Assembly: GCF_900129175.1 (NCBI RefSeq) | Contig: NZ_FQUI01000003.1 | Coordinates: forward strand, 1-64,000 | Direction: 5' to 3' | DNA from: Marinitoga hydrogenitolerans DSM 16785 | GTDB lineage: Bacteria > Thermotogota > Thermotogae > Petrotogales > Petrotogaceae | Length of the DNA stretch: 64,000 nt | Shown here: piece after piece, positions 43-29,938 of the stretch | Layout of the letters: each line of letters begins with the position of its first letter | Numbering within the stretch: position 1 is the first letter of the stretch | Translations under genes and position numbers: made by a program | The notes under the pieces: model-generated | What the model was told of the DNA's origin: nothing | The model's database searches: none | The model's input: only the letters and a program-made list of their open reading frames with translations

Positions 43-118
43 TGGGGTGGCATGTGGGATTTGAACCCACGACATCCTGATCCACAGTCAGGCGTTCTAC
101 CACTGAACTAATGCCACC
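43..118 (-). tRNA. tRNA-His (GTG)
   Basis: A full cloverleaf reads on the minus strand. The acceptor GTGGCAT pairs with ATGCCAC, the anticodon loop is CTGTGGA (anticodon GTG), and the T arm carries GGGTTCAAATCCC. There is a G at position -1 opposite C73, the identity element of tRNA-His. CCA is encoded at 45-43. It is the last of four tRNAs in one transcript. Confidence 0.97.
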
Positions 119-138
119 ATCACTAAATAAAAATAAGG

Positions 139-215
139 TGGCGCGCCCAGAGGGACTCGAACCCCCAACCCTTGGATTAGAAATCCAATGCTCTATCCTA
201 TTGAGCTATGGGCGC
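139..215 (-). tRNA. tRNA-Arg (TCT)
   Basis: A cloverleaf reads on the minus strand. The anticodon stem is TTGGA/TCCAA with loop TTTCTAA, so the anticodon is TCT (AGA codons, common in this AT-rich genome). The discriminator is G73 and CCA is encoded at 141-139. It abuts the Gly tRNA with no gap. Confidence 0.97.
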
Positions 216-291
216 TGGAGCGGCCGACGAGACTCGAACTCGCAACCCCTGGCTTGGAAGGCCAGTGTTCTACCAATTGAACTACAGCCGC
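216..291 (-). tRNA. tRNA-Gly (TCC)
   Basis: A cloverleaf reads on the minus strand. The anticodon stem is CTGGC/GCCAG with loop CTTCCAA, so the anticodon is TCC. T73 and an encoded CCA (218-216) are present, and the next tRNA begins at the following base. Confidence 0.97.
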
Positions 292-314
292 ACTTTTAAA
301 AAGTCGCCACCTTC

Positions 315-390
315 TGGTCGGAGCGACTGGGATCGAACCAGCGACCTCCGGTTCCCAAGACCGGCGCGCTACCATCTGCGCTACGCTCCG
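315..390 (-). tRNA. tRNA-Pro (TGG)
   Basis: A cloverleaf reads on the minus strand. The acceptor CGGAGCG pairs with CGCTCCG, and the 5' C is typical of bacterial tRNA-Pro. The anticodon loop is CTTGGGA (TGG). CCA is encoded at 317-315. It is the first tRNA of the transcript. Confidence 0.97.
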
Positions 391-16144: not shown

Positions 16145-16822
16145 TTATGCAGCGTGTACAATTTCACCGTCTTCTATCCTTATAATTTTATCACAATATT
16201 TTGAAATAACAAGTGTATTATGTGAAATCATTAAAGTGGTTATATTAAGTTCTTTGTTTATTCTTAATGTTAATTCCATAATTTTTTCAGTAACTCTTGG
16301 ATCTAAAGCAGCAGTATGTTCATCTAATAATAACAATTTTGGTTTAGACATAGTTGCCAGTATTAAGGCAAGAGCCTGTTTTTGTCCACCAGACAATTCT
16401 TTTACTTTTGTATTCAATCTTTTTTCTAACCCCATATCTAATCTTTTTAATAAGTCTAAGGAAGGTAATTTTCCGAATTTAAAAAATCTTAAACCTTTTT
16501 TTGCACCTAAAATTAAATTTTCTTTTATGGTTAAATCAGGAAATACACCCATGTCAGGATTTTGATATACAATACTAATCATTTTTGAAAGTTGAAAGGG
16601 TGTAGCGTTATTCATATTTTTATTATTTATTATATAATCGCCTTTTAAGGGTTTTACCAATCCCATTAAAACTTTGAATAGGGTAGATTTGCCTGCCCCA
16701 TTAGAACCAATAATTGTAATAAAATCTCCACTATTTATTTTCAAATTAAAATTCTTTAAACCAATTTTTTCATTGGTTTTTCCGTGGTTGTAAATGACAG
16801 TGATATTTTTGAGTTCAACCAT
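16145..16822 (-). CDS. ABC transporter ATPase (TrpZ/COG1101-like)
   Basis: A 225-residue ATP-binding subunit. Walker A is GSNGAGKST (39-47), the signature is LSGGQKQ (143-149), Walker B is LLLLDEHTAALD (163-174), and the switch His is in ISHNTLV. The LSGGQKQALALILATM pattern is typical of the ATPase that pairs with COG2984 binding proteins and COG4120 permeases (TrpXYZ-type importers). AGGTG precedes the ATG. The first 67 bases overlap the end of the permease gene in another frame, which suggests translational coupling. Confidence 0.93.
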   Translation of the reverse strand: MVELKNITVIYNHGKTNEKIGLKNFNLKINSGDFITIIGSNGAGKSTLFKVLMGLVKPLKGDYIINNKNMNNATPFQLSKMISIVYQNPDMGVFPDLTIKENLILGAKKGLRFFKFGKLPSLDLLKRLDMGLEKRLNTKVKELSGGQKQALALILATMSKPKLLLLDEHTAALDPRVTEKIMELTLRINKELNITTLMISHNTLVISKYCDKIIRIEDGEIVHAA

Positions 16823-17745
16823 TTTTTCACCTCCGAATTTCTTAAAGATATTACAATTATTATAAACAATGCAGTTGCTAATTTTAGGTCACTTGCTTTG
16901 AACCCTATATTATATCCGTATTTTATAACCATGCTTATTATAACTTGATATAATATCCCACCAATAAGAGGGGCAGGGATTTTTAATAAGAAATCACTTT
17001 TAAAAACAATTTCTCCTAAAATGACAGCAGCTAATCCCGTAACTAACATACCCTGTCCCATATTTACATCTGAAAAACCGGCATAAATAGAAAATAAGCC
17101 ACCGCTTATACCAACTAAAAAATTTCCTATAGATAGACCTAAAATACTTATAATATCAGGATTTACACCTATTGTTAAAACACCTTGCTTGTTTGAACCA
17201 AATGCTCTTAATAATGTTCCCAATTCTGTTTTAAGAAATAAATAATATAATAAAAATATAAGAATAGTTATAAAGGATAATTTTAAAAGAGCATAGGTTT
17301 CAAATGGATTAACAAATGAAAATGAAGCATCTTTTCCTAATGTGACATTATTATTATTTTCTAATAAAAAATCTAATTTTGTTCCAGAAAGATTTACAGA
17401 TGATTCCACTGATGTTTTTGGTAAAGATAAATTTGGCCCATTCATTATTCTAATATTTATCGAATAAAGCATAATCATTACCAAAATACTTGCAAGCAAG
17501 GGATTTATTTTTGCTTTAGTATGAATTAACCCTGTAAAAAAACCAGAAATACCGGCAAATATTCCACCAATTAATAGTGCGAAAATCCAATGAATATTAT
17601 TGTGTAATAATATAACAGTTATTGATCCGCCTAAAACATAGGAACCATCTGTTGTTAAATCTGGAGTGTCTATAATCTTAAAGGTAGTAAATACACCGAG
17701 AGACAGTATGGCCAATATTATACCTTGTTCAATAATTTCGATCAT
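16756..17745 (-). CDS. ABC transporter permease (TrpY/COG4120-like)
   Basis: A 329-residue inner-membrane permease with about nine hydrophobic segments. It has the family glycines and the loop TPDLTTDGSYVLGGSITVILL after the first membrane segment. It forms the channel for the binding protein and ATPase on either side. The C-terminal 22 residues are encoded in the overlap with the ATPase gene, are charged, and have no hydrophobic character. They may be a readthrough tail. It starts 4 bp after the binding-protein stop codon, with a GAGGTGA site overlapping that stop. Confidence 0.93.
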   Translation of the reverse strand: MIEIIEQGIILAILSLGVFTTFKIIDTPDLTTDGSYVLGGSITVILLHNNIHWIFALLIGGIFAGISGFFTGLIHTKAKINPLLASILVMIMLYSINIRIMNGPNLSLPKTSVESSVNLSGTKLDFLLENNNNVTLGKDASFSFVNPFETYALLKLSFITILIFLLYYLFLKTELGTLLRAFGSNKQGVLTIGVNPDIISILGLSIGNFLVGISGGLFSIYAGFSDVNMGQGMLVTGLAAVILGEIVFKSDFLLKIPAPLIGGILYQVIISMVIKYGYNIGFKASDLKLATALFIIIVISLRNSEVKKWLNSKISLSFTTTEKPMKKLV

Positions 17746-17749
17746 ATAT

Positions 17750-18685
17750 TCACCTCACAATAGTATCGGCAACATTTAAAAGTGACTCTGGAATGTCAAT
17801 ATTAAATCTTTTAGCAGATTTTAAATTTATTAATAAATTCAACGCACTCATATCCATGGTTTTAGACTCTAAATCTGAAGGGTTTTTTCCATCTATAATT
17901 TCATTTGCCATTTTACCAGTTTCTAAACCTAATGAGTAATAGTCAAAGCCAAAGCCGATAACGCTTTTTGCTTGTTTAGCTAGTTCAATATCTCCAGAAA
18001 TAGAAGGGATAGAATTATCATTAAGTATTTTAGACACACTTTCCATTGAAGAAGCAAGGAGATTGTCTGTGAAAATATATACAACATCAATATCTTTTAT
18101 TTTTGTATTTAACGAAGTTATCATCTCAGAAGATGTTGTTCCTGGGATTTCTATTATATTTAAATTCAAATCTTTTGCAAATTTTTTTGATAATTCCAAT
18201 AATGTTTTTGAATTTTGTTCTCCGGGATTAAAAATAATTCCAACATTATGAGCTTTTGGAAAAACCTTTTTCAATAATGACAAATGAACATTTACAGGAA
18301 GAAGATCGCTTAAACCAACGATATTTCCTTCGTTTTTTCCAAATCTTTTTATTAAACCAGCACTAATAGGATCAGTTACAGCCGAAAATATTAAAGGCTT
18401 ATCTTTAATAGTATTAGCAGCAGCTTGTGCGCTTGGTGTAGTTATTGCAATTATAATATCTGCAGAATTTTTAAATTCTTGAGCAATAGAGACAGCATTT
18501 TGATATGACCCTTGAGCATTTTGAAAAACTATTTTAACCTCAGGATGCTTTTCTTTAATAGTTTTAATAATAGCGTCTTTTACCTGATTTAAAGCTGGAT
18601 GATCTACAATTTGTGTAATACCAACTGTTAGAGAAAATCCTGTTAAAGTAACTAATAATACTACTAATAACGCCAACTTTTTCAT
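17750..18685 (-). CDS. ABC transporter substrate-binding protein (COG2984, TrpX-like)
   Basis: A 311-residue periplasmic binding protein with a signal peptide (MKKLALLVVLLVTLTGFS, cleaved near residue 18-19). There is no lipobox cysteine, so it is free in the periplasm or held by the toga. The mature start VGITQIVDHPALNQVKDAI and the FAVTDPISAGL-like stretch (SAVTDPISAGLIKRFGKNEGNIVG) are typical of the COG2984 family, several members of which import tryptophan or tyrosine. The leader peptide upstream carries four Tyr codons and one Trp codon, which points to an aromatic amino acid, most likely tyrosine. GGAGGTG precedes the ATG. Confidence 0.92.
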   Translation of the reverse strand: MKKLALLVVLLVTLTGFSLTVGITQIVDHPALNQVKDAIIKTIKEKHPEVKIVFQNAQGSYQNAVSIAQEFKNSADIIIAITTPSAQAAANTIKDKPLIFSAVTDPISAGLIKRFGKNEGNIVGLSDLLPVNVHLSLLKKVFPKAHNVGIIFNPGEQNSKTLLELSKKFAKDLNLNIIEIPGTTSSEMITSLNTKIKDIDVVYIFTDNLLASSMESVSKILNDNSIPSISGDIELAKQAKSVIGFGFDYYSLGLETGKMANEIIDGKNPSDLESKTMDMSALNLLINLKSAKRFNIDIPESLLNVADTIVR

Positions 18686-18740: not shown

Positions 18741-18772
18741 AAAAAAAGGTGGATGCCATTTGGCATCCACCT
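18741..18772 (-). terminator. Attenuator terminator upstream of the aromatic amino acid ABC operon
   Basis: On the minus strand AGGTGGATGCCA (18772-18761), loop AA, TGGCATCCACCT (18758-18747), then seven U. It lies between the leader peptide stop codon (18788) and the binding-protein start (18685), so it controls entry into the operon. Confidence 0.95.
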
Positions 18773-18787
18773 GCATTAACCTCACAC

Positions 18788-18898
18788 CTAAACAAATATG
18801 ACAAAAGAGGCATGGAGGTCATCTTTGTGGATGCCCTTACCATACCAATAATAATAGCTATTTATATTTTTAATTTGAAAAATTTTATTAATACTCAT
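18788..18898 (-). CDS. Leader peptide with Tyr-Tyr-Tyr-Trp-Tyr (transcription attenuation)
   Basis: A 36-codon open frame on the minus strand: ATG at 18898, TAG at 18790-18788, preceded by GGGGTG 6 nt upstream. Codons 15-19 are TAT TAT TAT TGG TAT (18856-18842). It starts about 30 bp after a consensus promoter and is followed 15 nt after the stop by a terminator. I infer a regulatory leader of the trp/his type: slow decoding of Tyr codons would favour the antiterminator. The peptide itself has no recognisable fold. Confidence 0.88.
   Translation of the reverse strand: MSINKIFQIKNINSYYYWYGKGIHKDDLHASFVIFV
18809..18846 (-). promoter_or_regulatory. Leader hairpin and antiterminator segment (Tyr leader)
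   Basis: On the minus strand GGTATGG (18846-18840) can pair with CCATGCC (18815-18809), seven pairs with one G-U. The 5' arm begins in the Trp18 and Tyr19 codons. The loop holds GGGCATCCAC (18836-18827), nearly identical to the terminator 3' arm. Nine of its bases can pair with the terminator 5' arm (18770-18762). A ribosome stalled on the Tyr codons would cover the hairpin base and leave this segment free to disrupt the terminator. Confidence 0.8.
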
Positions 18899-18928
18899 AA
18901 TATACACCCCTAAAATAAATTTGAATAT

Positions 18929-18957
18929 ATTGTATCATATGTTACATTGTATGTCAA
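18929..18957 (-). promoter_or_regulatory. Promoter of the leader and ABC operon
   Basis: On the minus strand TTGACA (18952-18957), 17 bp, TACAAT (18929-18934), 30 bp ahead of the leader start codon. Confidence 0.9.
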
Positions 18958-18971
18958 GAGGTATTTAAATT

Positions 18972-20654
18972 TTATTTTATCCACATAGTTTCGTAAGGTT
19001 TTAAATAAATGATTAATTCATTATTTTTTGTTTCTATTTCTTTATTAGAGAGTAAATCAAAAGGTCTTTCAGATAATGTATTTTCTATATTTATTAGAAC
19101 TTTTTCATTTGAAACATTTGTTAAAATTAAAATTTTTTCATCTTCATACTCTCTAATAAAAGAAAAAACTCTATTGTCTAAAAATAAAACTTTTTGAATT
19201 CCTTTAGGATTAAATGCTTTATGATTTGTTCTAATTTTAAGCATATTTTTCATTGCATTAAAAATTCTATATCTTAATGAATTTGGATCATTTATTTCTT
19301 TTTCCAATTTGGCATAATCTAATTTTTCTCTGTTAATACTTCTATTCATACCTGTTATTTTTACGCCTTCGTAATAATTTCTTGAACCAAGTAAGCTATG
19401 AATATATATGCCAGGAACGCCTTTCATAGACGAAGCTATAGCATAAGCTGAAACAAATTTTTTTATATTTAAATCCATAGTTTCATTTTTTTCGTATAAT
19501 GCATCGAAATAATTTATATTCAATTCATATGGAGATTTAGTGCCATCTGGATTACTTTTATAAGACACTAAACCTCTATTTTTTAATGTGTGTTCAACTA
19601 AGTAATCAACTTCTTCGTCTTTTAAAATTCCTTTTGCAGGCATTAGCCCTATTCCGTCGTGTGAAGCTAAAAAATTAAAAAATGTAGTTTTATCACTTGG
19701 AGTTTCCAAAGTATTTGCCCATTGTGATATGTATTTAGCATTTTTTGATAAAAAAGAGTGTAAAACAAGTGGAGGTAATGAAAAATTATAAACCATTTGT
19801 GCTTCATTGTAACCATTGCCAAAATATGAAATATTTTCTTTGTGAGGTACATTTGTTTCTGTAATTAAAATAACATTTTTTGCTGTAAGATTAAGAATAT
19901 CTCTAAATAGTTGTATCATTATATGCGTTTGTTTTAAATGAATACATGAAGTTCCAACCTCTTTCCATAAATAGCCAATAGCATCTAATCTAATTAATTT
20001 TGCGCCCTTTTTTGCATAAAATAATAATATTTCTACAATTTCTAAAAATAGATTTTCTGATTTATAATTTAAATCAATCTGATCTTCGCTAAAGGTAGTC
20101 CATATATGTTTTTTCCCTTCGTTGGTTTCGTATACGTGTAATAAAGGTAATGCCCTTGGCCTTGTGACGTATTTTAGTTCATCAACAGGTTCCTGCTCAA
20201 TAAAATAATCTTTAAATTTCGGATTTCCTTTTAAATATTCTTGAAACCATTTGCTTGATTTTGAAATATGATTAATAACGGCATCGAACATCAGATTATA
20301 ATCTTTAGATAATCTTTCAATGTCACTCCAATCACCTAATTCTGGATTTACTTTCTTATAATCAATTACAGAAAATCCATCATCTGATGAATATGGAAAA
20401 AAAGGTAATATATGAACGGTGTTAATAATACCTTTAACATGGTCATTTAAAAATTTATGCAATGTTTGTAATGGTTTTTCTCCATCTCTTTTTATAGAAT
20501 CACCATATGTAATTAAAATAACATCCTTCTCTGTTAAATTTATTTCCTTATCAGAAATTTTGTATTTTTCTATTAAATTCATTAGTTTATTATAAAGAAC
20601 ATCTGCATTTTCTGTATATAAAAACTTTAACTTATCATATATATTTTGAATCAT
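18972..20654 (-). CDS. GH13 sugar phosphorylase (sucrose / glucosylglycerate phosphorylase type)
   Basis: A 560-residue cytoplasmic enzyme of glycoside hydrolase family 13, subfamily 18 style. Residues are numbered from the ATG at 20654: FDAVINHIS (D124), nucleophile D224 (LIRLDAIGYLWK), acid/base E266 (ITETNVPH) and D333 (LASHDGIG). The subfamily splits alpha-glucosides with phosphate to give glucose 1-phosphate. Substrates include sucrose, sucrose 6-phosphate and glucosylglycerate, which I cannot separate here. The start follows GAGGTG by 6 nt; an earlier frame start overlaps the regulator. It closes the sugar transporter-RpiR operon, which fits uptake then phosphorolysis. Confidence 0.9.
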   Translation of the reverse strand: MIQNIYDKLKFLYTENADVLYNKLMNLIEKYKISDKEINLTEKDVILITYGDSIKRDGEKPLQTLHKFLNDHVKGIINTVHILPFFPYSSDDGFSVIDYKKVNPELGDWSDIERLSKDYNLMFDAVINHISKSSKWFQEYLKGNPKFKDYFIEQEPVDELKYVTRPRALPLLHVYETNEGKKHIWTTFSEDQIDLNYKSENLFLEIVEILLFYAKKGAKLIRLDAIGYLWKEVGTSCIHLKQTHIMIQLFRDILNLTAKNVILITETNVPHKENISYFGNGYNEAQMVYNFSLPPLVLHSFLSKNAKYISQWANTLETPSDKTTFFNFLASHDGIGLMPAKGILKDEEVDYLVEHTLKNRGLVSYKSNPDGTKSPYELNINYFDALYEKNETMDLNIKKFVSAYAIASSMKGVPGIYIHSLLGSRNYYEGVKITGMNRSINREKLDYAKLEKEINDPNSLRYRIFNAMKNMLKIRTNHKAFNPKGIQKVLFLDNRVFSFIREYEDEKILILTNVSNEKVLINIENTLSERPFDLLSNKEIETKNNELIIYLKPYETMWIK

Positions 20655-20670
20655 TGGAAACACCTCTATT

Positions 20671-21477
20671 TCAAAATTTCTTTGGTTTAATAACATTTTT
20701 TAGCTTGTCAAAATGTTCATCGTTGAATTTTTTAGAAACAACCAGATTATATAATAATTCTATTATATACATTTCGCCTATTCTATCATGGGTAAATTCA
20801 TTTTCAGAAGGATCACTTGGTGTAGTATATACCACTTCATCAGCGACCAAACTTAAAGGAGAATCAACACCTGATGTTATAGCTATTGTATGAGCACCGG
20901 CATCTTTAGCTATTTGAGTAGATTTAAAAACATCTCTAATATAGCCAGAATGGCTAATTGATATAACAGTGTCTTCTTCGTTTAAATTAGCTCCAACAAT
21001 AACCTGCATATGTGGATCAGAATATGCTGCAGTAGGTAATCCTAAAGCAGCAAATTTCAAAGAACTATCAAGAGCTACAGGAAAGGATCTTCCAACGGCA
21101 AAAAATATTAATTTCTTTGATTTTAAAATTCTTTCTGCAATTTTATTTAGTAATTCTTTATTTAAATTTTGATATATAATATTTAAGCTATTACAAATTT
21201 TGTTATGAAAATGAGAAAACAAATCCTCTTTTTTGGAAGTATCTAATGGTGGTTCTGATAATTCTTTAGCAAGTAAAATTTTGAATTCTTGATAACCAGT
21301 AAAACCCAATTTTTTAATTACTCTGTATACAGTAGTTTCACTTACTTCAGACCAATTAGCCAATTCTGTTATGCTATAATGTATAACATCAGGAGCTCTT
21401 TCTATAATATAATCGGCAACCTTCTTTTCCCTTTTTGTTAATGAGTTATAAATTCCTTTGATTTTGTTAATTATCAT
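20671..21477 (-). CDS. RpiR-family transcriptional regulator
   Basis: A 268-residue regulator. Residues 1-75 are the RpiR helix-turn-helix (SLTKREKKVADYIIERAPDV, then ELANWSEVSETTVYRVIKKLGFTGYQEFK). Residues 110-240 are a SIS sugar-phosphate-binding domain (KLIFFAVGRSFPVALDSS, VISISHSGYIRDVFKSTQIAKDAGAHTIAITS). It probably responds to a sugar phosphate from the transported glycoside. The ATG at 21477 follows AGAGGTG; a GTG three codons earlier is less well placed. It lies between the permease and the phosphorylase, 16 bp ahead of the latter. A long palindrome at the operon promoter is a candidate operator. Confidence 0.94.
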   Translation of the reverse strand: MIINKIKGIYNSLTKREKKVADYIIERAPDVIHYSITELANWSEVSETTVYRVIKKLGFTGYQEFKILLAKELSEPPLDTSKKEDLFSHFHNKICNSLNIIYQNLNKELLNKIAERILKSKKLIFFAVGRSFPVALDSSLKFAALGLPTAAYSDPHMQVIVGANLNEEDTVISISHSGYIRDVFKSTQIAKDAGAHTIAITSGVDSPLSLVADEVVYTTPSDPSENEFTHDRIGEMYIIELLYNLVVSKKFNDEHFDKLKNVIKPKKF

Positions 21478-21489
21478 AATATTCACCTC

Positions 21490-22461
21490 TTATTCTTTTA
21501 CCCCTCCAGCAGTCAAACCACCTGTTAAATATTTTTCCATCATCATAAATAGAGCAACTACTGGTATAGCTGTTACTACAGAAGCAGCCATCATTTTTGC
21601 CCATATAGCATGTTCAGAATTAAAGATTTCATTTAAACCTAAAGGCAAAGTATAAAATTCCGGGAAAGGTCTTACAAAAATAGATGCAAATAAAAATTCA
21701 TTCCATGCTATCATAAAAGCATAAATATATACAGTAATTATAGCAGGTAAAGATAAAGGAATTATTATTTTTGTGATAACACCCATTCGTGTTGTGCCAT
21801 CTATAATAGCAGCTTCCTCAATAGATCTTGGAATTGTTCTAAAATAATTTCCAAGCATATATAAGGAAACAGGTATTGTTTGAACAATATAGATAATAAA
21901 TAAAGCTATAGCTGATTTAAATCCTGAAGAAGTAAGGCCAATTTTTACAAAAATTTGATATAATGGAACTGCTAATATTGTACCTCCAAAAAGATAAACA
22001 ATCAACACACCACGTTGAATAGTTCCTCTTCCTTTGAAATCTATTCTACTAAAAGCATATGCTCCGAAAATAGAAAGTATCAAACTTACCAAAGCACTTA
22101 AACCTGCAATTACCAAACTATTTCTAAAAAATCTTAGAAATGGGAAGGATTCCTTTTTTCTTTGAGCTGTAATTTGAGATAATACTGCTTCTTGCTGCTC
22201 TTTAGGTAACGTTTTTATTATTTCAAGTAATTGTTGTTGTTCATTACTTAATTCTTCACGAAGTGATTTTTTAAATCCTAAAAGTATAGCATATGTTTCA
22301 AGAGTGGGTCTCTCTGGTATGATTCCAGGTTCAAAAGCATCAGTATCATATCTAAAAGATACAGATAACATCCAGGCAAAAGGATAAGTAATAAAAACAA
22401 CCAATAATGTAATTAAAAACCAAAAAATAAAAGTTCTTAAAAAGCTTTTTTTCTTTACCAT
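21490..22461 (-). CDS. Sugar ABC transporter permease (MalG-like)
   Basis: A 323-residue inner-membrane permease with six membrane segments. The EAA loop is EEAAIIDGTTRMGVITKIIIPLSLPA. It ends in GGLTAGGVKE, as MalG-type permeases do. An unusual feature is a hydrophilic Glu/Gln-rich stretch of about 40 residues after the first membrane segment (LREELSNEQQQLLEIIKTLP, continuing to KKESFPFLR) that would lie outside the membrane. It overlaps the preceding permease gene by 7 bp. No ATPase is in the operon, so a shared MsmX-type ATPase elsewhere must energise it. Confidence 0.94.
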   Translation of the reverse strand: MVKKKSFLRTFIFWFLITLLVVFITYPFAWMLSVSFRYDTDAFEPGIIPERPTLETYAILLGFKKSLREELSNEQQQLLEIIKTLPKEQQEAVLSQITAQRKKESFPFLRFFRNSLVIAGLSALVSLILSIFGAYAFSRIDFKGRGTIQRGVLIVYLFGGTILAVPLYQIFVKIGLTSSGFKSAIALFIIYIVQTIPVSLYMLGNYFRTIPRSIEEAAIIDGTTRMGVITKIIIPLSLPAIITVYIYAFMIAWNEFLFASIFVRPFPEFYTLPLGLNEIFNSEHAIWAKMMAASVVTAIPVVALFMMMEKYLTGGLTAGGVKE

Positions 22462-23321
22462 TTTAACACCTTCTTTACATAGAAGCCAATTAATGATATC
22501 ATTATTATAAATAAAATTGTAGCAATCGCTGCAGCAACACCTTGTTCAGGGATTCCAGAAAAAGCTTTTTCATAAATGTATATGGGTAAAGTATTTGCGA
22601 ATTTAGACATAAGATAAACTTCATCGAATTTATAAAAATTCCATATACCCCTTAGCAATGCAACAGAAGCAATAACAAAATATAATTCTGGTAATGTTAT
22701 GTGTAAAAATTTTTGCCAGTTAGTAGCTCCATCTATTTCAGCAGCTTCGTAATAATCTGTAGGGATAGATTGTAATCGTGATAATAACATTAAGTATACA
22801 AATGGAAAGTTTCGCCAAATATTGAATACAGAAACAACCCAAAAAGCATTGTTTGGGTTATTAACAAAATCATTTCCTGGATCCATTCCAAAAACAGCTA
22901 AAATTTTCATTAATGGTCCATCAATAGGTAAGAAAATATATTTCCAGGCAAACACAATTGCAATTAATGGAGTGACATATGGTAATAACAATAGAGCTCT
23001 AACAAAGCCTCTTCCAGGGAATTCTCTATTCATTAATAGAGCCACGCCTAAACCTAAAAGAATACTTCCAATAACGGTAGTAAGTGTGAACAATATAGTA
23101 ATACCAAATGATTTCCAGAATGAAGAATCTCCAAGTATTTCGACATAATTTTGTAATCCTACAAACCTATTTGGGGCATCTGAAATAGATACCTCAAAAA
23201 AACTTAAATAAATATTATAAATAACGGGGTATAAAATTAATAAAGCAATAAGTATAACAGTCGGCAAAACCAGTTTCCATCCGAACCTTGCGTCTTTTTC
23301 TTTTAAAGAAATTGCAGGCAT
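22455..23321 (-). CDS. Sugar ABC transporter permease (MalF-like)
   Basis: A 288-residue inner-membrane permease with six membrane segments and the EAA loop EAAEIDGATNWQKFLHITLPEL, partner of the downstream MalG-like subunit. The N-terminal KEDARFGWKLVLPTVILIALLILYP-type segment is normal for the family. A terminator-like hairpin stands between this gene and the binding-protein gene upstream, so it may be expressed at a lower level. GGAGGT precedes the ATG. Confidence 0.94.
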   Translation of the reverse strand: MPAISLKEKDARFGWKLVLPTVILIALLILYPVIYNIYLSFFEVSISDAPNRFVGLQNYVEILGDSSFWKSFGITILFTLTTVIGSILLGLGVALLMNREFPGRGFVRALLLLPYVTPLIAIVFAWKYIFLPIDGPLMKILAVFGMDPGNDFVNNPNNAFWVVSVFNIWRNFPFVYLMLLSRLQSIPTDYYEAAEIDGATNWQKFLHITLPELYFVIASVALLRGIWNFYKFDEVYLMSKFANTLPIYIYEKAFSGIPEQGVAAAIATILFIIMISLIGFYVKKVLKW

Positions 23322-23344
23322 TGTAAAACCTCCTTTTTTTAAAA

Positions 23345-23371
23345 AAAGGGGGATTTTTGGAATCCCCCTTT
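23345..23371 (-). terminator. Intra-operon terminator between binding protein and permease genes
   Basis: aaagggggat/atcccccttt (23345-23354 with 23362-23371), loop ttttgga. On the minus strand it is followed by seven U. It lies in the 61-bp gap after the binding-protein gene. Partial readthrough would give more binding protein than permease, a common arrangement. Confidence 0.85.
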
Positions 23372-23382
23372 ATGAAAAATCA

Positions 23383-24663
23383 TTATTTTCCTAATACTTT
23401 TTCAGCTTCTTTTTGTGCCCACATAGCTGTTTTTTGTGGAGTCCAGTCATTTGCAAACATATAATTAATAGCTTTTCCTATAACAAAATTTGCACTCAAT
23501 TTGCTCATATCAGTTATAACCTTACCATCAATAAATTCAAATCTTTCAACAGAATCCAAAGCGGCAACAATTTCTGCGATTTTTGCTTTTCCATATCTTT
23601 TCAAAACTGAATTATCTAAGAAAGCATCACTTTCAGCAACAGATTTTCTTGTTGGATTCATCCCGCCTGGTGCCATATGTACCCAATATACATAATTCTT
23701 ATCTGACATTAAAAATTTAACAAATTTTTCAGCTTCATCTTTATTAGCATTTTTTGTTATACCTAATGCAACAACCTGCCCATAAGATGTAGGTCTTGTG
23801 TTTATCATTTTATTAGCAAAACCTGTATTTTTTACTAATTGAGGATTAAACTTATTTATTCTTCCTTTTTGAACCTCTTCAACAGCAATATCATCCATAA
23901 TATATGTTGAATAGAAAATCATAGCAGTTTCTCCATTTAAATATCCCTTTAAAGCATCTAAAACAGTTGTGAATCCAGGTTTTGAATATTTTCCTAATTC
24001 TTTGTAGAATCTAAAAGCTTCAATCATTTCAGGAGTATTAAATGTAATGTTCCCGTTTTCATCAATAGGTCTTGCGCCATTTGCTAATGCAACTTCTGTG
24101 AATACTTGTTCGGCATAAGCATCAGCCTTTTTAGGTAAGATTATACCATAAACCCCTTTTGCAGGGTTATTTAATACTTTTGCAGCTAATGCAATATTAT
24201 ACCAAGTTACAGGATCTCCGAGATCTTGAGATGCAAACATATCTTTTCTATACCATATACCTTGAACCCAAGCGTGAAATGGAATGCCATAATACTTTCC
24301 TTTGCCGTTGCTTAACAATCTTGCAGCACCATCATAAATATCGCCAAAGTCCATAATAATTTTTGTTGCTAAATCTTCATCTAAGAAGTTTTGAGAACCT
24401 AATAATAATAATGGTTCAATTCCTCCTTCTACAATATCAGGCAATGTGCCAGCGTTTTTTGCAATAGGAATTTGTTTTAACATATCATTTTCTTCTACTG
24501 GGATAACTTCCACGTCAATACCAGTTTGTGCTTTGAAAATAGTTGCTAATGCCCTAATTCTCTGCATTCTGTTCGATTCTACTTGTGTTGTCCAAAATGT
24601 AATTTTCCCAAAAACAGTAGATATCAATACCAATACCAGCATGAATACAAAAAGCTTTTTCAT
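23383..24663 (-). CDS. Sugar ABC transporter substrate-binding protein
   Basis: A 426-residue extracytoplasmic solute-binding protein, family 1. A signal peptide covers residues 1-18 (MKKLFVFMLVLVLISTVFG), with no lipobox. The core has KITFWTTQVESNRMQRIRAL, then the cluster-1 pattern GIDVEVIPVEENDMLKQIPIAKNAGTLPDI, and GETAMIFYSTYIMDDI later. It is the first gene of the operon with two permeases, an RpiR regulator and a GH13 phosphorylase. The ligand is therefore probably the alpha-glucoside that the phosphorylase cleaves. GGGGGT precedes the ATG. Confidence 0.94.
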   Translation of the reverse strand: MKKLFVFMLVLVLISTVFGKITFWTTQVESNRMQRIRALATIFKAQTGIDVEVIPVEENDMLKQIPIAKNAGTLPDIVEGGIEPLLLLGSQNFLDEDLATKIIMDFGDIYDGAARLLSNGKGKYYGIPFHAWVQGIWYRKDMFASQDLGDPVTWYNIALAAKVLNNPAKGVYGIILPKKADAYAEQVFTEVALANGARPIDENGNITFNTPEMIEAFRFYKELGKYSKPGFTTVLDALKGYLNGETAMIFYSTYIMDDIAVEEVQKGRINKFNPQLVKNTGFANKMINTRPTSYGQVVALGITKNANKDEAEKFVKFLMSDKNYVYWVHMAPGGMNPTRKSVAESDAFLDNSVLKRYGKAKIAEIVAALDSVERFEFIDGKVITDMSKLSANFVIGKAINYMFANDWTPQKTAMWAQKEAEKVLGK

Positions 24664-24703
24664 AAAAATACCCCCTTTTAGAGAATTATTTTTTTTTAAA
24701 ACA

Positions 24704-24731
24704 AATTAAAAAGAAAATTTTCTTTTTAATT
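24704..24731 (-). promoter_or_regulatory. 28-bp perfect palindrome at the sugar operon promoter
   Basis: Two 14-bp half sites, aattaaaaagaaaa and ttttctttttaatt (24704-24717 and 24718-24731), meet with no spacer. The repeat overlaps the -10 element and the start point. The centre gaaaattttc resembles operator cores reported for RpiR-family proteins. It is the likely repressor site for the RpiR protein of this operon. Confidence 0.7.
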
Positions 24732-24757
24732 ATACAACAAAAAAAATTTTTTATCAA
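24729..24757 (-). promoter_or_regulatory. Promoter of the sugar operon
   Basis: On the minus strand TTGATA (24752-24757), 17 bp, TATAAT (24729-24734). The untranslated leader is about 60 nt. I see nothing else in the rest of the 24664-24907 gap apart from the ADP-ribosylglycohydrolase terminator. Confidence 0.85.
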
Positions 24758-24870
24758 TTATAAAATGGAGCGGTTATTAATAATTAAATATCATTTGTAG
24801 TTGTTATATGCTATTAAGTGAAAAAATCTAATAAAATTAATTAAATATTTTTTATATAGATAAAAAAATA

Positions 24871-24889
24871 AAGCCTCAAATTGAGGCTT
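24871..24889 (-). terminator. Terminator after the ADP-ribosylglycohydrolase gene
   Basis: aagcctca/tgaggctt stem (24871-24878 with 24882-24889), 3-nt loop, with a U-rich tract on the minus strand. Confidence 0.85.
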
Positions 24890-24907
24890 ATAAAAACTTC
24901 AAAAATT

Positions 24908-25798
24908 TCATTCGGTTGAAATAGAAGCATTATAAAGGTTCTCTATTATTTCCATTATTAAATCTTTTTTTGCGATTTTCAATATCCATAATTTAGGGAG
25001 GTTACTGTATCCATAATATGATCCAGCTAATTGCCCTATTATAGCCCCAATTGTATCAGTATCTCCCTTAAAATTAATAGCAGTTAAAACAGCATCCTTA
25101 AAATTATTGGTATTATAAAATGCCCATAATGCTATTTCTAAAGAATCCAAAGAAGCAGATGATGATCTTATTTGTTCTTTTGATTTGTATTTAATATCAA
25201 CAACTCTTAATCTTACGTCATATACCAAATCCATTTTCTTATGAATTTCATTCATTAAAAATTTTTTATTTTCGCCATTAATAGCCTGTTGAATAATTCC
25301 ACCAAGTAATTTGCAGGAGTGGATTGAATAAATATTATTATGTGTGGTATAAGAACTTTGTCCAGAATAATATATAGCGTCTTTAAATGAATTTTTAAAA
25401 AACATGGGAATAGGAGCTAATCTTGCTAAAGATTTATTTGAATCGATATTTGTAATATCAGCAAATTTGGTATATTTTTCATAATATATTAATGCATCCA
25501 TTGTTTGGTTATCTATGCCAAAAGCTTTATCTTTAGAAGATAAATATCCGTCATCAATCCATTTTAGGTATTTTTTTATTTGGCTGTCTAAATCAAATCC
25601 ATCTTCAATTAAACTTTCAGCGAGACATAAAGCCATTGAGGCAGAATCTGTCCACTCTCCAATGTTTAAACCATAAATACCGCCCTTTGAAAAGTCTGTT
25701 ATTTTTTCTACATTCAAGTTTTTATAGGGAGCACCTAAAGCATTTCCTACAATTAAACCAAATAATGCGCCTATAAATCTATCCTTAGTTTTATCCAT
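24908..25798 (-). CDS. ADP-ribosylglycohydrolase family protein (DraG-like)
   Basis: A 296-residue all-helical protein. The family start GALFGLIVGNALGAPYKN and the C-terminal metal motif KGDTDTIGAIIGQLAGSYYG are clear. The N-terminal metal motif, usually TDDT, reads GEWTDSASMALCLAESLIE: one of the two adjacent Asp residues is Ser and the Thr is changed. The enzyme may hydrolyse ADP-ribose bonds with an altered metal site, or act on another ligand. The ATG at 25798 follows AAAGGGGG; the start six codons upstream includes that site. Its promoter faces the asnS promoter. Confidence 0.88.
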   Translation of the reverse strand: MDKTKDRFIGALFGLIVGNALGAPYKNLNVEKITDFSKGGIYGLNIGEWTDSASMALCLAESLIEDGFDLDSQIKKYLKWIDDGYLSSKDKAFGIDNQTMDALIYYEKYTKFADITNIDSNKSLARLAPIPMFFKNSFKDAIYYSGQSSYTTHNNIYSIHSCKLLGGIIQQAINGENKKFLMNEIHKKMDLVYDVRLRVVDIKYKSKEQIRSSSASLDSLEIALWAFYNTNNFKDAVLTAINFKGDTDTIGAIIGQLAGSYYGYSNLPKLWILKIAKKDLIMEIIENLYNASISTE

Positions 25799-25831
25799 AA
25801 CATTGCCCCCTTTCAAAGATTATTTAATTTA

Positions 25832-25856
25832 ATTATAACATATTATATGTTATAAT
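25832..25856. promoter_or_regulatory. Symmetric divergent promoter (ADP-ribosylglycohydrolase / asnS)
   Basis: A 25-bp palindrome: arms attataacatat (25832-25843) and atatgttataat (25845-25856) around one base. The outer ends are TATAAT on each strand, so two -10 elements face outward from one symmetric element. The -35 regions are weak. Confidence 0.65.
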
Positions 25857-25888
25857 ATATAAAAATTGAATATTTGGGAGGGAGAAAT

Positions 25889-27187
25889 ATGGAATGGGTA
25901 TATATTAAAGATATGAAAAAATATATAGGCCAGAAAGTAGAGTTTAAAGGGTGGTTATGGAACAAAAGAGCAAGTGGAAAAATAGCCTTTTTACAGTTAA
26001 GGGATGGTACGGGGTTTGTTCAAGGTGTTGTTGAAAAAAACACTTTAGGAGAAGAAAAATATGCTCAGGTGAAAAAATTAAAAATGGAAAGTTCTTTAAT
26101 AGTTAAAGGAGTTGTTGTAGAAGATCAAAGATCGCCTGTTGGTTTTGAGTTACATATAGAAGATGTTGAGATAGTACATAATCCAACAGAAGATTATCCA
26201 ATTTCAAAAAAAGAGCATGGTATTGATTTTTTAATGGAACATAGACATTTGTGGTTAAGGTCAAGAAGACAGTTTCATATATTAAAAATCAGGCATGAAA
26301 TAATTAAAGCCATAAGAGAATTTTATAATAATAATGGGTTTGTTTTAATAGATACACCAATATTTACAGGTTCAATTGGCGAGAGTGCAGGTAATACATT
26401 TGAAATAGAATATTTTGATTATGGAAAGGTTTATTTAGCTCAAACGGGTCAATTATATCTAGAAGCAGCAGCAATGGCTTTGGGAAAGGTATATAACTTA
26501 GGGCCTACATTTAGAGCTGAAAAGTCAAAAACAAGAAGACATTTAATAGAATTTTGGATGAATGAAGCAGAGGTAGCATATTACACGCACGAAGATAATA
26601 TGAAATTACAGGAAAATTTGGTGTCTTACGTTGTAAAAAAAGTTTTAGAAAATGCATCGGAAAATTTAAAAGCTCTTGATAGAGATATTTCAAAATTAGA
26701 AAAAATAGAAGCACCATTCCCAAGAATTACATATACAGATGCTATAAAATTATTGAATAAAAAAGGTTCGGATATAAGATGGGGTGAAGACTTAGGAGCG
26801 GATGATGAAACGTTGATTTCTGAAGAATTTGATAGACCTGTTATTATTGAAAAGTATCCAAAATCAGTAAAAGCATTTTATATGCAGCCAGATCCTGAAA
26901 ATCCTGATGTTGTTTTATGTGATGATATGATTGCTCCAGAAGGTTATGGTGAAATTATTGGAGCATCAGAAAGAATCTGGCAAGAAGAAGTGCTTTTAGA
27001 AAGATTAAAAGAAAATAATTTGCCAATTGAAGAATATCAATGGTATCTTGATTTAAGAAAATATGGATCAGTCCCTCATAGTGGTTTTGGTTTAGGAATT
27101 GAAAGAACAGTTGCTTGGATTTGTGGTTTAAAGCATATAAGGGAAGCAATACCTTTTGCAAGGACATTATATAGAGTTTATCCTTAA
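25889..27187 (+). CDS. asnS: Asparaginyl-tRNA synthetase
   Basis: A class IIb aminoacyl-tRNA synthetase of 432 residues. The N-terminal OB fold ([30 protein letters not shown]) binds the anticodon. Motif 2 ([24 protein letters not shown]) and motif 3 ([16 protein letters not shown]) form the catalytic site. The compact size and absence of the bacterial AspRS insertion favour AsnRS over AspRS. The ATG at 25889 follows GGGAGG; an in-frame TTG at 25874 would place the ribosome site inside the gene. It is followed by a terminator. Confidence 0.93.
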
Positions 27188-27189
27188 GA

Positions 27190-27212
27190 AAAGAGCTGAT
27201 TTTCAGCTCTTT
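27190..27212 (+). terminator. Terminator after asnS
   Basis: aaagagctga/tcagctcttt stem (27190-27199 with 27203-27212), 3-nt loop, followed by a T-rich tract. Confidence 0.88.
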
Positions 27213-27252
27213 TTCATTTACATTTTATTTACTTTAATAATCTTTTGTTTAC

Positions 27253-27282
27253 TTGACATCTAGATGATTTATATGTTAGAAT
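27253..27282 (+). promoter_or_regulatory. Promoter of the methionine leader and metQNI operon
   Basis: TTGACA (27253-27258), 18 bp, TAGAAT (27277-27282), 45 bp ahead of the leader start codon. Confidence 0.85.
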
Positions 27283-27327
27283 ACGAAAAAATATAAATAG
27301 AATGAAAAAATATATTCGGGTGATATT

Positions 27328-27435
27328 ATGAGATTAAGTAATAATTTAAAAAGATTATATAAAGTACATATGATGATGATGTGGCATACCGGTCTTCTTT
27401 TTAAGAAGATTAATGCCACTCTGTTTTTGTGCTGA
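27328..27435 (+). CDS. Leader peptide with four consecutive Met codons (transcription attenuation)
   Basis: A 35-codon open frame: ATG at 27328, TGA at 27433, with CGGGTG 6 nt upstream. Codons 15-18 are ATG ATG ATG ATG (27370-27381), followed by Trp. The stop codon is 15 nt ahead of a strong terminator, and metQ follows. Charged tRNA-Met limitation would stall a ribosome on the Met run. The frame is short, lies in a leader and has no recognisable fold, so its role is inferred to be regulatory. Confidence 0.88.
   Translation: MRLSNNLKRLYKVHMMMMWHTGLLFKKINATLFLC
27381..27419 (+). promoter_or_regulatory. Leader hairpin and antiterminator segment (Met leader)
   Basis: GTGGCAT (27381-27387) pairs perfectly with ATGCCAC (27413-27419). 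The 5' arm starts at the last base of the fourth Met codon. Inside lie CATACCGGTCTTC (27385-27397) and a small hairpin tcttctt/aagaaga (27393-27399 with 27403-27409). The segment can make 13 pairs with the terminator 5' arm (27450-27463), with one G-U and one bulged T. Stalling on the Met run would block the hairpin base and favour this antiterminator. Confidence 0.8.
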
Positions 27436-27450
27436 GTGGAATTAATTGAG

Positions 27451-27486
27451 AAGGCCGGTTATGAAAATAACCGGCCTTATTTTTTT
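27451..27486 (+). terminator. Attenuator terminator upstream of metQNI
   Basis: aaggccggttat/ataaccggcctt stem (27451-27462 with 27467-27478), GAAA loop, then T-rich sequence to 27486. It is placed between the leader stop codon and the metQ start at 27511. Confidence 0.95.
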
Positions 27487-27510: not shown

Positions 27511-28305
27511 ATGAAAAAGTTTTTATTTGTGGTTTTATTGTTAATTTTAGTTATTTTTATTGGTTGTACAAAAGAAGAAAAGGTATTGAAAATTGGTGCA
27601 ACAGCTGTTCCACACGCAGAAATCCTTGAGTTTATTAAAGATGACTTTGAAAAAGAAAGCGGATATAAATTAGAGATTGTAGTTTTTAATGATTATGTTC
27701 AGCCGAATATAGCATTAGAAGAAGAACAGATCGATGCAAATTATTTTCAACATGTACCTTATTTAGAGGAGTTTTCAAAAAGCAAAGGATATAAAGATTT
27801 AATATCAATTGCAAAAATCCATGTTGAACCTATGGGGTTTTATTCAAAAAAATCAATAAAAGAATTTAAATCAGGCGATAAAGTGGTAATTCCGAATGAT
27901 GCAACAAATGAAGGAAGGGCATTGTTGTTATTACAGGAGAATGGATTAATAAAATTAAAGGATACGAATTCTTTAAAAGTTACTATTAATGATATTGAAG
28001 AAAATAAATATAATTTGGATTTCGTTGAATTAGATGCAGCATATTTGCCAAGGACATATAAAGAAGATACCTCTGTAATTGGTGCGGTAATAAATACAAA
28101 TTATGCAATAGAAAATGGATTAAACCCACTAAAAGATGCAATATTTATAGAAAATGCTAATTCACCATATGCAAATATTATAGCAGTAAAAGAAAAAAAT
28201 AAAGATAATAAAGAAATTCAACTTTTAATTAAATTATTACAATCAAAAAAAGTTAAGGATTTTATTTTAGAAAAATATAAAGGTGCTGTTGTACCAACCT
28301 TTTAA
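27511..28305 (+). CDS. metQ: Methionine ABC transporter binding lipoprotein MetQ
   Basis: A 264-residue lipoprotein of the NlpA/MetQ family. The signal peptide ends in IFIGC with Cys19 for lipid attachment. The mature part has LKIGATAVPHAEILEF, then QHVPYLEEFSKSKGY and the substrate-site stretch VIPNDATNEGRALLLLQENGLI typical of methionine-binding proteins. It presents methionine to MetN and MetI. The ATG at 27511 follows GGAGGTG; a start at 27436 in frame lies within the terminator. The Met-run leader directly upstream supports methionine as substrate. Confidence 0.95.
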   Translation: MKKFLFVVLLLILVIFIGCTKEEKVLKIGATAVPHAEILEFIKDDFEKESGYKLEIVVFNDYVQPNIALEEEQIDANYFQHVPYLEEFSKSKGYKDLISIAKIHVEPMGFYSKKSIKEFKSGDKVVIPNDATNEGRALLLLQENGLIKLKDTNSLKVTINDIEENKYNLDFVELDAAYLPRTYKEDTSVIGAVINTNYAIENGLNPLKDAIFIENANSPYANIIAVKEKNKDNKEIQLLIKLLQSKKVKDFILEKYKGAVVPTF

Positions 28306-28319
28306 GGAGAGTGAATGAA

Positions 28320-29294
28320 TTGTTAGAAGTGAAAAATTTAAATCTTATATATGATGGAGAAAATCATGTATTAAAGAATATAACTTTTAAATTAGAAAAA
28401 GGAGAAATATTAGGAATTATAGGACTTTCCGGTGCCGGAAAGTCTTCTCTATTAAGAGCTTTGAATTTACTTGAAAGACCTCATGGCGAAATATTATTTG
28501 ATAATATTAATTTAACCCAATTATCAAGAAAAGATTTAAGGAAATTTAGAAAAAAAATAGGAGTGGCTTTTCAACATTACAATTTATTATCAAGAAAAAC
28601 TGTTTTTGAAAATATTTCATTGCCTTTAATCTTAAATAAAGAAAATGAAATAGAAGAAAAAGTATCTAATATTATAAAAAAAGTTGGTCTTGAACATAGG
28701 AAAAACGCATTTCCGGCACATTTGTCAGGTGGCGAAAAACAGAGAGTTTCAATTGCAAGGGCAATTGTTTCTAATCCTGATATTTTATTTTTGGATGAAC
28801 CAACATCTGCGCTTGATCCAAAAACTACAGAAAAAATTCTTGAATTAATATTAAAAATTAATCAAGATATGAAAATTTCAACAATTATAGTAACACATGA
28901 AATGGATGTAATAAAGAGAATTTGTGATAAAATTTTGTATTTAAAAAATGGAAGTGTTCATTATTTTGGTGAAGTATATAGATTTTTTTCTGAATTTGAA
29001 AAGGAATTAAATGAAGAGTTTTATAAAGATATTAATTATGATTATAGCAAGTTGAAATTTAAAAATGGAGAAATAATAAAGGTTATTTTTTATGGAGAAA
29101 ATGTTGGAAAACCAATTTTAAACGAAATTTCTAAAAAATATGATATTACTTTCAATATTTTATATGGTAAAATAGAAGATTTTAAAAATGCACCATTTGG
29201 AAAATTAATTATAGAAATAGAAGGAGAAAAAACAAATGAATTTATAAATGAATTAAAAAAACATGTTTATGCTTTGGAGGTGTTAATGCTTTGA
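28320..29294 (+). CDS. metN: Methionine ABC transporter ATPase MetN
   Basis: A 324-residue ATPase of the methionine uptake system. Walker A is GLSGAGKSS (35-43), the signature is LSGGEKQR, Walker B is ILFLDEPTSALD. Residues 250-324 form the C-terminal NIL regulatory domain, which in MetN binds methionine and inhibits transport. The likely start is TTG at 28320, nine bases after AAGGAGA. A GTG at 28311 would lie too close to that site. The end overlaps metI by 4 bp. Confidence 0.95.
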   Translation: MLEVKNLNLIYDGENHVLKNITFKLEKGEILGIIGLSGAGKSSLLRALNLLERPHGEILFDNINLTQLSRKDLRKFRKKIGVAFQHYNLLSRKTVFENISLPLILNKENEIEEKVSNIIKKVGLEHRKNAFPAHLSGGEKQRVSIARAIVSNPDILFLDEPTSALDPKTTEKILELILKINQDMKISTIIVTHEMDVIKRICDKILYLKNGSVHYFGEVYRFFSEFEKELNEEFYKDINYDYSKLKFKNGEIIKVIFYGENVGKPILNEISKKYDITFNILYGKIEDFKNAPFGKLIIEIEGEKTNEFINELKKHVYALEVLML

Positions 29295-29938
29295 ACATTA
29301 TAAATGAATTAGTTAAGGCAACATTAGAAACATTATATATGACATTTTTTTCGGGTTTTTTAAGCGTTATTTTTGGAATACCTTTAGGAATAATATTATA
29401 CTTAACATCTATCAGCCAACTTAAAATATCAAAGATTATATATAGAATTTTTGATGTTGTTATTAATATATTTCGATCTATACCCTTTATTATATTAATT
29501 GTATTAGTTATACCTTTAACAAAGTTAATAGCAGGAACAATAATAGGTCCTAAATCAGCAATAGTATCTTTAACGATTGCCGCAATACCTTTTATGGCAA
29601 GATTAAGTGAAAGTACTTTTAATTCATTATCGAAAGAAATGATTGATACTGCACATACATTAGGAATGAATAATTTTGAATTTATAGTGAAGATTCTTAT
29701 CCCTGAAATGTTACCAAAAATTGTTTCTAATATAACTTTGTTACTAATAAACCTTGTAAATTATACAGCTATAGCAGGTGCGGTTGGAGCAGGAGGATTA
29801 GGTGCAATGGCTATAAATTATGGATATCAAAGATTTAGATTTGATATTTTAATGTATGATTTAATTATTTTAATTTTAATTACGCAAGTAATACAGTTTG
29901 TAGGAATGAAGATAGAAAATATAATAGATATAAAATAA
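29291..29938 (+). CDS. metI: Methionine ABC transporter permease MetI
   Basis: A 215-residue inner-membrane permease with five membrane segments and the EAA-like loop MIDTAHTLGMNNFEFIVKILIPEMLPK. It completes MetNIQ. It starts at TTG (29291), four bases before the end of metN, with GGAGGTG 8 nt upstream. An ATG at 29285 stops after two codons. The operon ends at an imperfect A/T-rich inverted repeat near 29946-29975. Confidence 0.94.
   Translation: MNIINELVKATLETLYMTFFSGFLSVIFGIPLGIILYLTSISQLKISKIIYRIFDVVINIFRSIPFIILIVLVIPLTKLIAGTIIGPKSAIVSLTIAAIPFMARLSESTFNSLSKEMIDTAHTLGMNNFEFIVKILIPEMLPKIVSNITLLLINLVNYTAIAGAVGAGGLGAMAINYGYQRFRFDILMYDLIILILITQVIQFVGMKIENIIDIK

Follow-up and report, generated by a model that had tools for sequence, protein, structure and literature searches.

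Two leader regions of Marinitoga hydrogenitolerans and a predicted attenuator layout shared by amino-acid genes of six or more kinds in the phylum Thermotogota

The window analysed here comprises the first 64,000 nucleotides of contig NZ_FQUI01000003.1 of Marinitoga hydrogenitolerans DSM 16785 (assembly GCF_900129175.1), and contains two leader regions on opposite strands, each situated between a promoter and the genes of an ATP-binding cassette (ABC) transporter. On the evidence of their sequences both appear to be ribosome-sensing transcription switches, one reading tyrosine and tryptophan codons and the other methionine codons. Each consists of a short leader peptide open reading frame (ORF) with a run of cognate codons, a first hairpin (the protector), a segment within that hairpin that mimics the 3′ arm of the terminator and would act as the antiterminator strand (the mimic), and an intrinsic terminator. 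The same predicted switch layout recurs throughout the phylum Thermotogota, where the amino-acid genes that follow it are of six kinds or more.

The Tyr leader lies on the minus strand. Its promoter (18929..18957) is formed from TTGACA, a 17 nt spacer and TACAAT, with a TG before the −10 element, and matches the consensus at 11 of 12 positions. A Shine-Dalgarno-like GGGGTG is placed 5′ of the ATG of a 36-codon ORF, MSINKIFQIKNINSYYYWYGKGIHKDDLHASFVIFV (18788..18898, read from 18898 to 18788). Codons 15–19 of this ORF (18842..18856) are TAT TAT TAT TGG TAT, encoding Tyr-Tyr-Tyr-Trp-Tyr, and aromatic codons are conserved at this place across families. The first hairpin, predicted with RNAfold at 18809..18846, is closed by 7 bp between GGTATGG (18846-18840) and CCATGCC (18815-18809), including one G·U pair that becomes A-U in the homologues L007 and L008. 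An inner stem lies within it, and its 5′ and apical part holds the mimic GGCATCCAC (18827..18835), which is perfectly complementary to GTGGATGCC, a part of the terminator 5′ arm. In 26 of 27 aromatic homologues this hairpin exceeds shuffled sequences in stability (mean z −1.7). The terminator (18741..18772) consists of an 11-bp stem (18772-18747) and a U tract, the stem lying 15 nt from the end of the stop codon. The regulated gene (17750..18685, minus strand) encodes a TrpX-like ABC substrate-binding protein (PF04392, Pfam E 3e-64) and is followed on the same strand by an ABC permease (16756..17745; PF02653) and an ABC ATPase (16145..16822; Pfam). The closest NCBIfam model to the binding protein is TrpX, at 216.8 bits, and because this match is under the 390-bit cut-off the operon is described here as that of a probable aromatic amino-acid transporter.

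The Met leader lies on the plus strand, with a promoter (27253..27282) of TTGACA, an 18 nt spacer and TAGAAT that again matches the consensus at 11 of 12 positions. The ORF of 35 codons, MRLSNNLKRLYKVHMMMMWHTGLLFKKINATLFLC (27328..27435), carries four consecutive ATG codons at codons 15–18 (27370..27381) followed by TGG CAT, and Met runs are conserved in the homologues. The first hairpin (27381..27419) is formed by 7 bp between GTGGCAT (27381-27387) and ATGCCAC (27413-27419) and encloses an inner CTTCTT/AAGAAG stem; its family has a mean z of −1.7 against shuffles. The mimic ACCGGTCTTCTT (27388..27399) pairs with GAGAAGGCCGGT (27448-27459), which lies within and just 5′ of the terminator (27451..27485; a 12-bp stem at 27451-27478 and a U tract). 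The stem is once more 15 nt from the end of the stop codon. The regulated gene, metQ (27511..28305; Pfam Lipoprotein_9, 3e-89; NCBIfam MetQ, 218 bits, under the 374-bit cut-off), starts at approximately 27511, after GGAGGTGATATT, and the mechanically called ORF from 27436 runs over the terminator. It is followed by metN (an ABC ATPase with a NIL domain, best NCBIfam match MetN) and metI (Pfam permease), together at 28311..29938. In a homologous locus, L063 of genome G040, metQ is interrupted by stop codons and the Met attenuator is intact; the gene is perhaps decaying, or the assembly may be wrong.

These two leaders had been noticed for sharing five details despite being unrelated in sequence. 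Every named element was located, and the sequences are indeed no more alike than expected, with a local alignment score of 21 against a shuffled mean of 18.9 and maximum of 34. In both leaders the 5′ arm of the 7-bp hairpin overlaps the last regulatory codons, and in both the hairpin contains the terminator mimic that pairs with the terminator 5′ arm. Other features that the window leaders have in common vary among homologues. The regulatory codons, which start at codon 15 in both window leaders, begin anywhere from codon 6 to codon 24 in homologues, and the spacing between stop codon and stem, exactly 15 nt in the window, ranges from 7 to 43 nt. Codon 15 and the 15 nt spacing, two of the five details, were thus rejected as meaningful constraints and are regarded as coincidence. 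Similarly, the TGG codon that provides part of the hairpin arm in the window leaders is not general: in genus g12 the Met leaders have MMMYGN instead.

A lack of further examples in related genomes had been named as a refutation, and recurrence before other amino-acid genes as support; the design does recur, before six kinds of gene. Homologues of the first gene of both operons were gathered from 103 Thermotogota genomes, and four more leader-bearing genes (asnA, trpB2, gltA and a basic amino-acid ABC transporter) were taken from G042, a 2.2 Mb genome of the window's genus, and traced through the phylum likewise. The leaders collected in this way, 106 of them distinct, fall into an aromatic, a Met, an Asn, a His/Arg, a Trp and a Pro/Glu family. 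Leaders with Tyr, Phe or Trp codons precede the TrpX-like ABC operon at 33 of 36 loci, Met-run leaders are present at 19 of 30 metQ loci, Asn-run leaders at 23 of 30 asnA loci, His or Arg leaders at 15 of 27 loci for the basic amino-acid ABC transporter and Trp-Trp-Trp leaders at 18 of 30 trpB2 loci; the Gln-Pro-Glu-Pro leaders (7 of 24 gltA loci) are confined to the window's genus, and in G042 gltA is followed by aconitase-like genes, proC, proA and proB. A leader had to hold two or more cognate codons to be counted in any family, so these per-family figures are not blind. The downstream gene fits the cognate codons in all six families. As in the window, the leaders of this set combine a short ORF having a Shine-Dalgarno sequence and consecutive cognate codons with an intrinsic terminator between the leader stop codon and the structural gene. 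In genome G045 the homologues of the aromatic transporter (L019, L180, L187) differ in their leaders, one having a short Trp-only leader, NWWWH, and its paralogues Phe/Tyr leaders, which suggests specialised copies.

If the mimics had a role in antitermination they would be expected to change together with the terminator arms, and the lack of such covariation had been named as grounds for abandoning the idea. Covariation was found. For 18 mimic/arm pairs without a common 6-mer, chosen as greedy representatives, pairing with the leader's own terminator has a mean of 25.5 compared with 13.5 when partners are swapped, and the observed total was reached in 0 of 100,000 permutations. Within families the swap test has little power, the arms there being too alike. 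Pairs that precede one and the same transporter gene include GGCATCCAC/GTGGATGCC in the window, AGACACCCAATTTG/CAAATTGGGTGTCT, ATGCCCTCTTCC/GGAAGAGGGCAT and AACGTCCTTTCTT/AAGAGAGGACGTT. In seven aligned Trp leaders the antiterminator is a 14-bp helix in which 98% of the cells are paired and two pairs are changed on both sides, whereas sliding the partner by 1–3 columns reduces the paired cells to at most 50%. Column counts were not used for the aromatic leaders, as their alignment across genera by MAFFT placed the terminator arm four columns off. The first hairpin of the Trp family rests on stability (negative z-scores) rather than on covariation, because its column covariation is no better than that of shuffles. 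Together with the recurrence of the layout, the covariation of mimic and arm supports the view that both window leaders are attenuators of one layout.

The background against which such complementarity is seen was estimated in G042, which contains 603 terminator-like sites, 212 of them before a gene. Of these 212, only six attain a mimic score of 21 or higher, compared with 24 and 27 for the two leaders of the window. Ranking by mimic score alone, blind to the amino acids encoded, brings mainly amino-acid leaders to the fore, with four of the six high scorers belonging to this class, one to infC and one lying beside a small-peptide/ABC-exporter cluster. The infC leader (L159 near 7981), with its strong complementarity to the terminator arm, is probably a case of the known L20/IF3-type autoregulation. 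At the cluster (L080:19700-20000, L081:100-250), tandem terminators with matching stems separate a small peptide ORF, MNKLAFVRFELLQFDSGRSVSTSCDNLAQIKVNCC, from another small ORF plus an ABC exporter, and the locus resembles a cluster for a ribosomally made peptide. Elsewhere, at the start of the window itself (46-390, minus strand), four clustered tRNA genes are recognised by Rfam.

It was also proposed that the layout is a reusable, lineage-specific module. Apparent copying of an element is seen only among the Arg, His and Pro/Glu leaders of the window's genus; the other leaders have the layout in common without similarity of sequence. In that genus a pair of leaders before basic amino-acid transporters lies close to the gltA-pro leader, and all three share one RNA core (AAGGTGTGG and ACACCTTGAGTT segments, and the GGCCACAC terminator). 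In the window's own genome these three neighbouring predicted attenuators are found on contig C21, with terminators near 338 and 1428 of L231 and near 1126 of L254, and on the common core the sensor codons read Arg-His-Arg-Ser-Arg, His-His-His and, in the gltA-pro leader, Gln-Pro-Glu-Pro. Local scores among the Arg, His and Pro/Glu leaders are 54–126 compared with shuffled maxima of 32–35. Apparently the core was copied and its sensor codons rewritten. By the same local scores the Tyr, Met, Asn and Trp leaders are similar neither to this core nor to each other, and therefore a layout under a common mechanical constraint is the safer statement for them; the architecture common to the Tyr and Met leaders could equally be convergence under one such constraint.

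Taking the elements together, we put the probability that each leader is a ribosome-mediated transcription attenuator at roughly 0.87. From the anatomy we infer ribosome stalling, read-through and a physiological response as follows. Under scarcity of the amino acid, translation would slow at the run of cognate codons; the ribosome would come to a stop a little short of the mimic, its body covering the foot of the first hairpin on the 5′ side. The free mimic would then capture the emerging 5′ arm of the terminator, and RNA polymerase would continue into the genes for transport or biosynthesis. Given an ample supply, the ribosome would pass over the mimic to the stop codon, the mimic would be hidden and the terminator would form. 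The distance between the A site and the leading edge of the ribosome is approximately 13 nt, as established mainly in Escherichia coli. Counted from where the cognate cluster begins, the mimic lies 13–15 nt away in all 18 Trp leaders, 12–19 nt in Pro/Glu, 13–22 nt in Met, 17–34 nt in Asn and 18–32 nt in aromatic leaders; this interval, some 13 nt or more in most leaders, does look constrained in a manner fitting the leading edge. Modelled folding agrees with these steps. Removal of the sequence up to the edge of the stalled ribosome allows the antiterminator to fold in 106 of 106 leaders at 37 °C, and with a ribosome placed at the stop codon the terminator has a mean probability of 0.92–0.98. 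In the fully emerged RNA the terminator wins, so control must, according to the folding model, be kinetic.

Several observations weigh against this account. Three His leaders have their first His codon only 9–10 nt from the mimic and some His leaders contain only two His codons, while the demand for two cognate codons in assigning families also bears on the per-family counts. A further point concerns the leader before translation. Prior to emergence of the terminator 3′ arm, the ribosome-free RNA favours the antiterminator with a probability of 0.79–0.96 in most families (0.56 in Trp), unlike E. coli trpL, thrL, leuL and pheL, for which the value at the same stage is 0–0.24 (ilvL, 0.94). At equilibrium the first hairpin would thus be no strong guard of the mimic. 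It is possible, with the odds somewhat against it, that no hairpin guard operates and that under replete conditions the ribosome itself hides the mimic, so that a replete ribosome may permit termination and both untranslated and stalled leaders would read through. Against such an arrangement, the average stability of the first hairpin exceeds that of shuffled sequences throughout the families (mean z −1.7 to −3.7), and as this hairpin can form ahead of the antiterminator it could trap the mimic kinetically.

The position of the mimic in the first hairpin also differs from the E. coli form. When the leaders are folded with the terminator left off, 88 of the 106 use the mimic more as a 5′ than as a 3′ strand, its other nucleotides lying in the apical loop, and in these 88 the predicted antiterminator strand is therefore not segment 2 of the E. 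coli form, which is a 3′ strand. The same code applied to E. coli thrL, trpL, leuL, pheL and ilvL places the mimic on the 3′ strand with a probability of 0.70–0.82; for hisL the mimic finder gave no usable mimic. The suggestion that segment 1 seems to pair with segment 3 is therefore upheld as a general tendency, and as a structural variant of attenuation it is supported by the modelled folds. A 3′-strand antiterminator is accordingly treated as a trait of the E. coli subtype and not of ribosome-mediated attenuation as such. That the leaders have the classical trp topology after all, the 5′-strand position being an artefact of the choice of fold, is unlikely: the five E. coli controls and the 88 leaders argue against it, although the mimic is not chiefly 5′-sided in 18 of the 106, and in the Trp leaders L297 and L309 and some Asn leaders it spans the loop or touches the 3′ strand. 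A tentative proposal, which we would not yet favour over its negation, is that the Thermotogota topology is distinct, the 5′ strand of the first hairpin carrying the antiterminator strand immediately in front of a ribosome that has stalled. Termination would then need a covering ribosome and an untranslated leader would read through, the reverse of E. coli trp, and the RNA core could be duplicated with new sensor codons (Arg, His, Pro/Glu), rewiring operons.

A rival reading takes the leaders for T-boxes or metabolite-binding riboswitches whose short ORFs are incidental. In its favour, the classes of gene are the same, and such elements have a terminator/antiterminator anatomy in common with the leaders. 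T-boxes control amino-acid genes in Firmicutes. In other Thermotogota genera riboswitches hold the very same position: a SAM-I riboswitch (RF00162) is in place of the Met leader at nine metQ loci (L040, L041, L043, L045-L048, L050, L051), and a lysine riboswitch (RF00168) precedes the basic amino-acid ABC transporter in others (L258:926-1110, L260:2333-2519). The exchange of SAM-I riboswitch for Met attenuator before metQ is a natural regulator replacement, and these replacements therefore support the substrate classes proposed for the transporters. As an explanation of the leaders themselves, however, such elements are very improbable. The scanned leaders match no Rfam family (Trp, His, Leu or Thr leaders, or riboswitches) at gathering score, the best being L20_leader at 26.7 bits against a gathering score of 58.7. 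The T-box covariance model (RF00230) has no match in the 103 Thermotogota genomes and is positive in five control genomes. The homologues have no common sequence core, and yet their in-frame codon runs are conserved. Both readings were rejected on these grounds. T-boxes likewise govern amino-acid genes through transcription antitermination but need no translation, and the two riboswitches sense the metabolite directly, with no leader ORF. Mere chance, in which unremarkable terminators would happen to lie by fortuitous ORFs and complementary segments, and for which one might cite the abundance of short ORFs in AT-rich genomes and the individually coincidental codon 15 and 15 nt, is refuted by conservation in dozens of genomes, the agreement of amino acid and gene, and covariation.

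Among known systems the closest are the E. coli attenuators. The leaders trpL, thrL, leuL, pheL, hisL and ilvL also encode peptides rich in cognate codons with amino-acid genes downstream, and trp-type attenuators share the mutually exclusive antiterminator and terminator and, as far as the predicted folds indicate, a first hairpin that overlaps the cognate codons. In contrast, the Thermotogota antiterminator strand is on the 5′ strand or in the apical loop of the first hairpin, near the ribosome edge, and the distance from first cognate codon to mimic, 13–15 nt in the Trp family, is at least 20 nt in five E. coli leaders. The targets also differ in including transporters and asnA, and the sequences are unrelated. 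Actinobacterial attenuators (trp, ilvB, leuA) are a similar case of leader peptides predicted comparatively outside the Proteobacteria, albeit for other operons in another phylum (PMC1262725). In that group a conserved gGCC-rGCy-GGCC pattern is common to the antiterminator and terminator of trp (Seliverstov 2005, PMC1262725), and leuA has a pseudoknot and perhaps no classical attenuator (PMC1262725).

No published report of leader-peptide attenuators in Thermotogota was found in the searchable literature, subscription papers being outside its scope. A transcription-unit study of Thermotoga maritima relied on Rfam to predict small RNAs and never uses the word ‘attenuation’ (PMC3636130), and the motifs of leader ORFs described in a search of 26 genomes including Thermotogae belong to other groups (PMC8632094). 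An RNA-regulon survey treated attenuators for His, Leu, Thr and Trp only, found few RNA sites per genome in Thermotogota, and suggested that amino-acid attenuators may stem from the gamma-proteobacteria (PMC3766115).

Ribosome-mediated attenuation is itself already known; what would be new, as far as comparison of sequences indicates, is the phylum-wide set, the 5′-strand antiterminator and the recoded duplicated core. The control of amino-acid genes in Thermotogota is poorly described. The codons of the leaders yield direct substrate predictions for transporters, and the pairs of leader peptide and riboswitch before one gene are natural material for studying how regulators are replaced. The Arg, His and Pro/Glu duplicates provide a case in which sensor codons have seemingly been rewritten on one RNA core. 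If the proposed mechanism is true, the coupling of ribosome and RNA polymerase would have a regulatory role in a mostly heat-loving phylum far from the model organisms.

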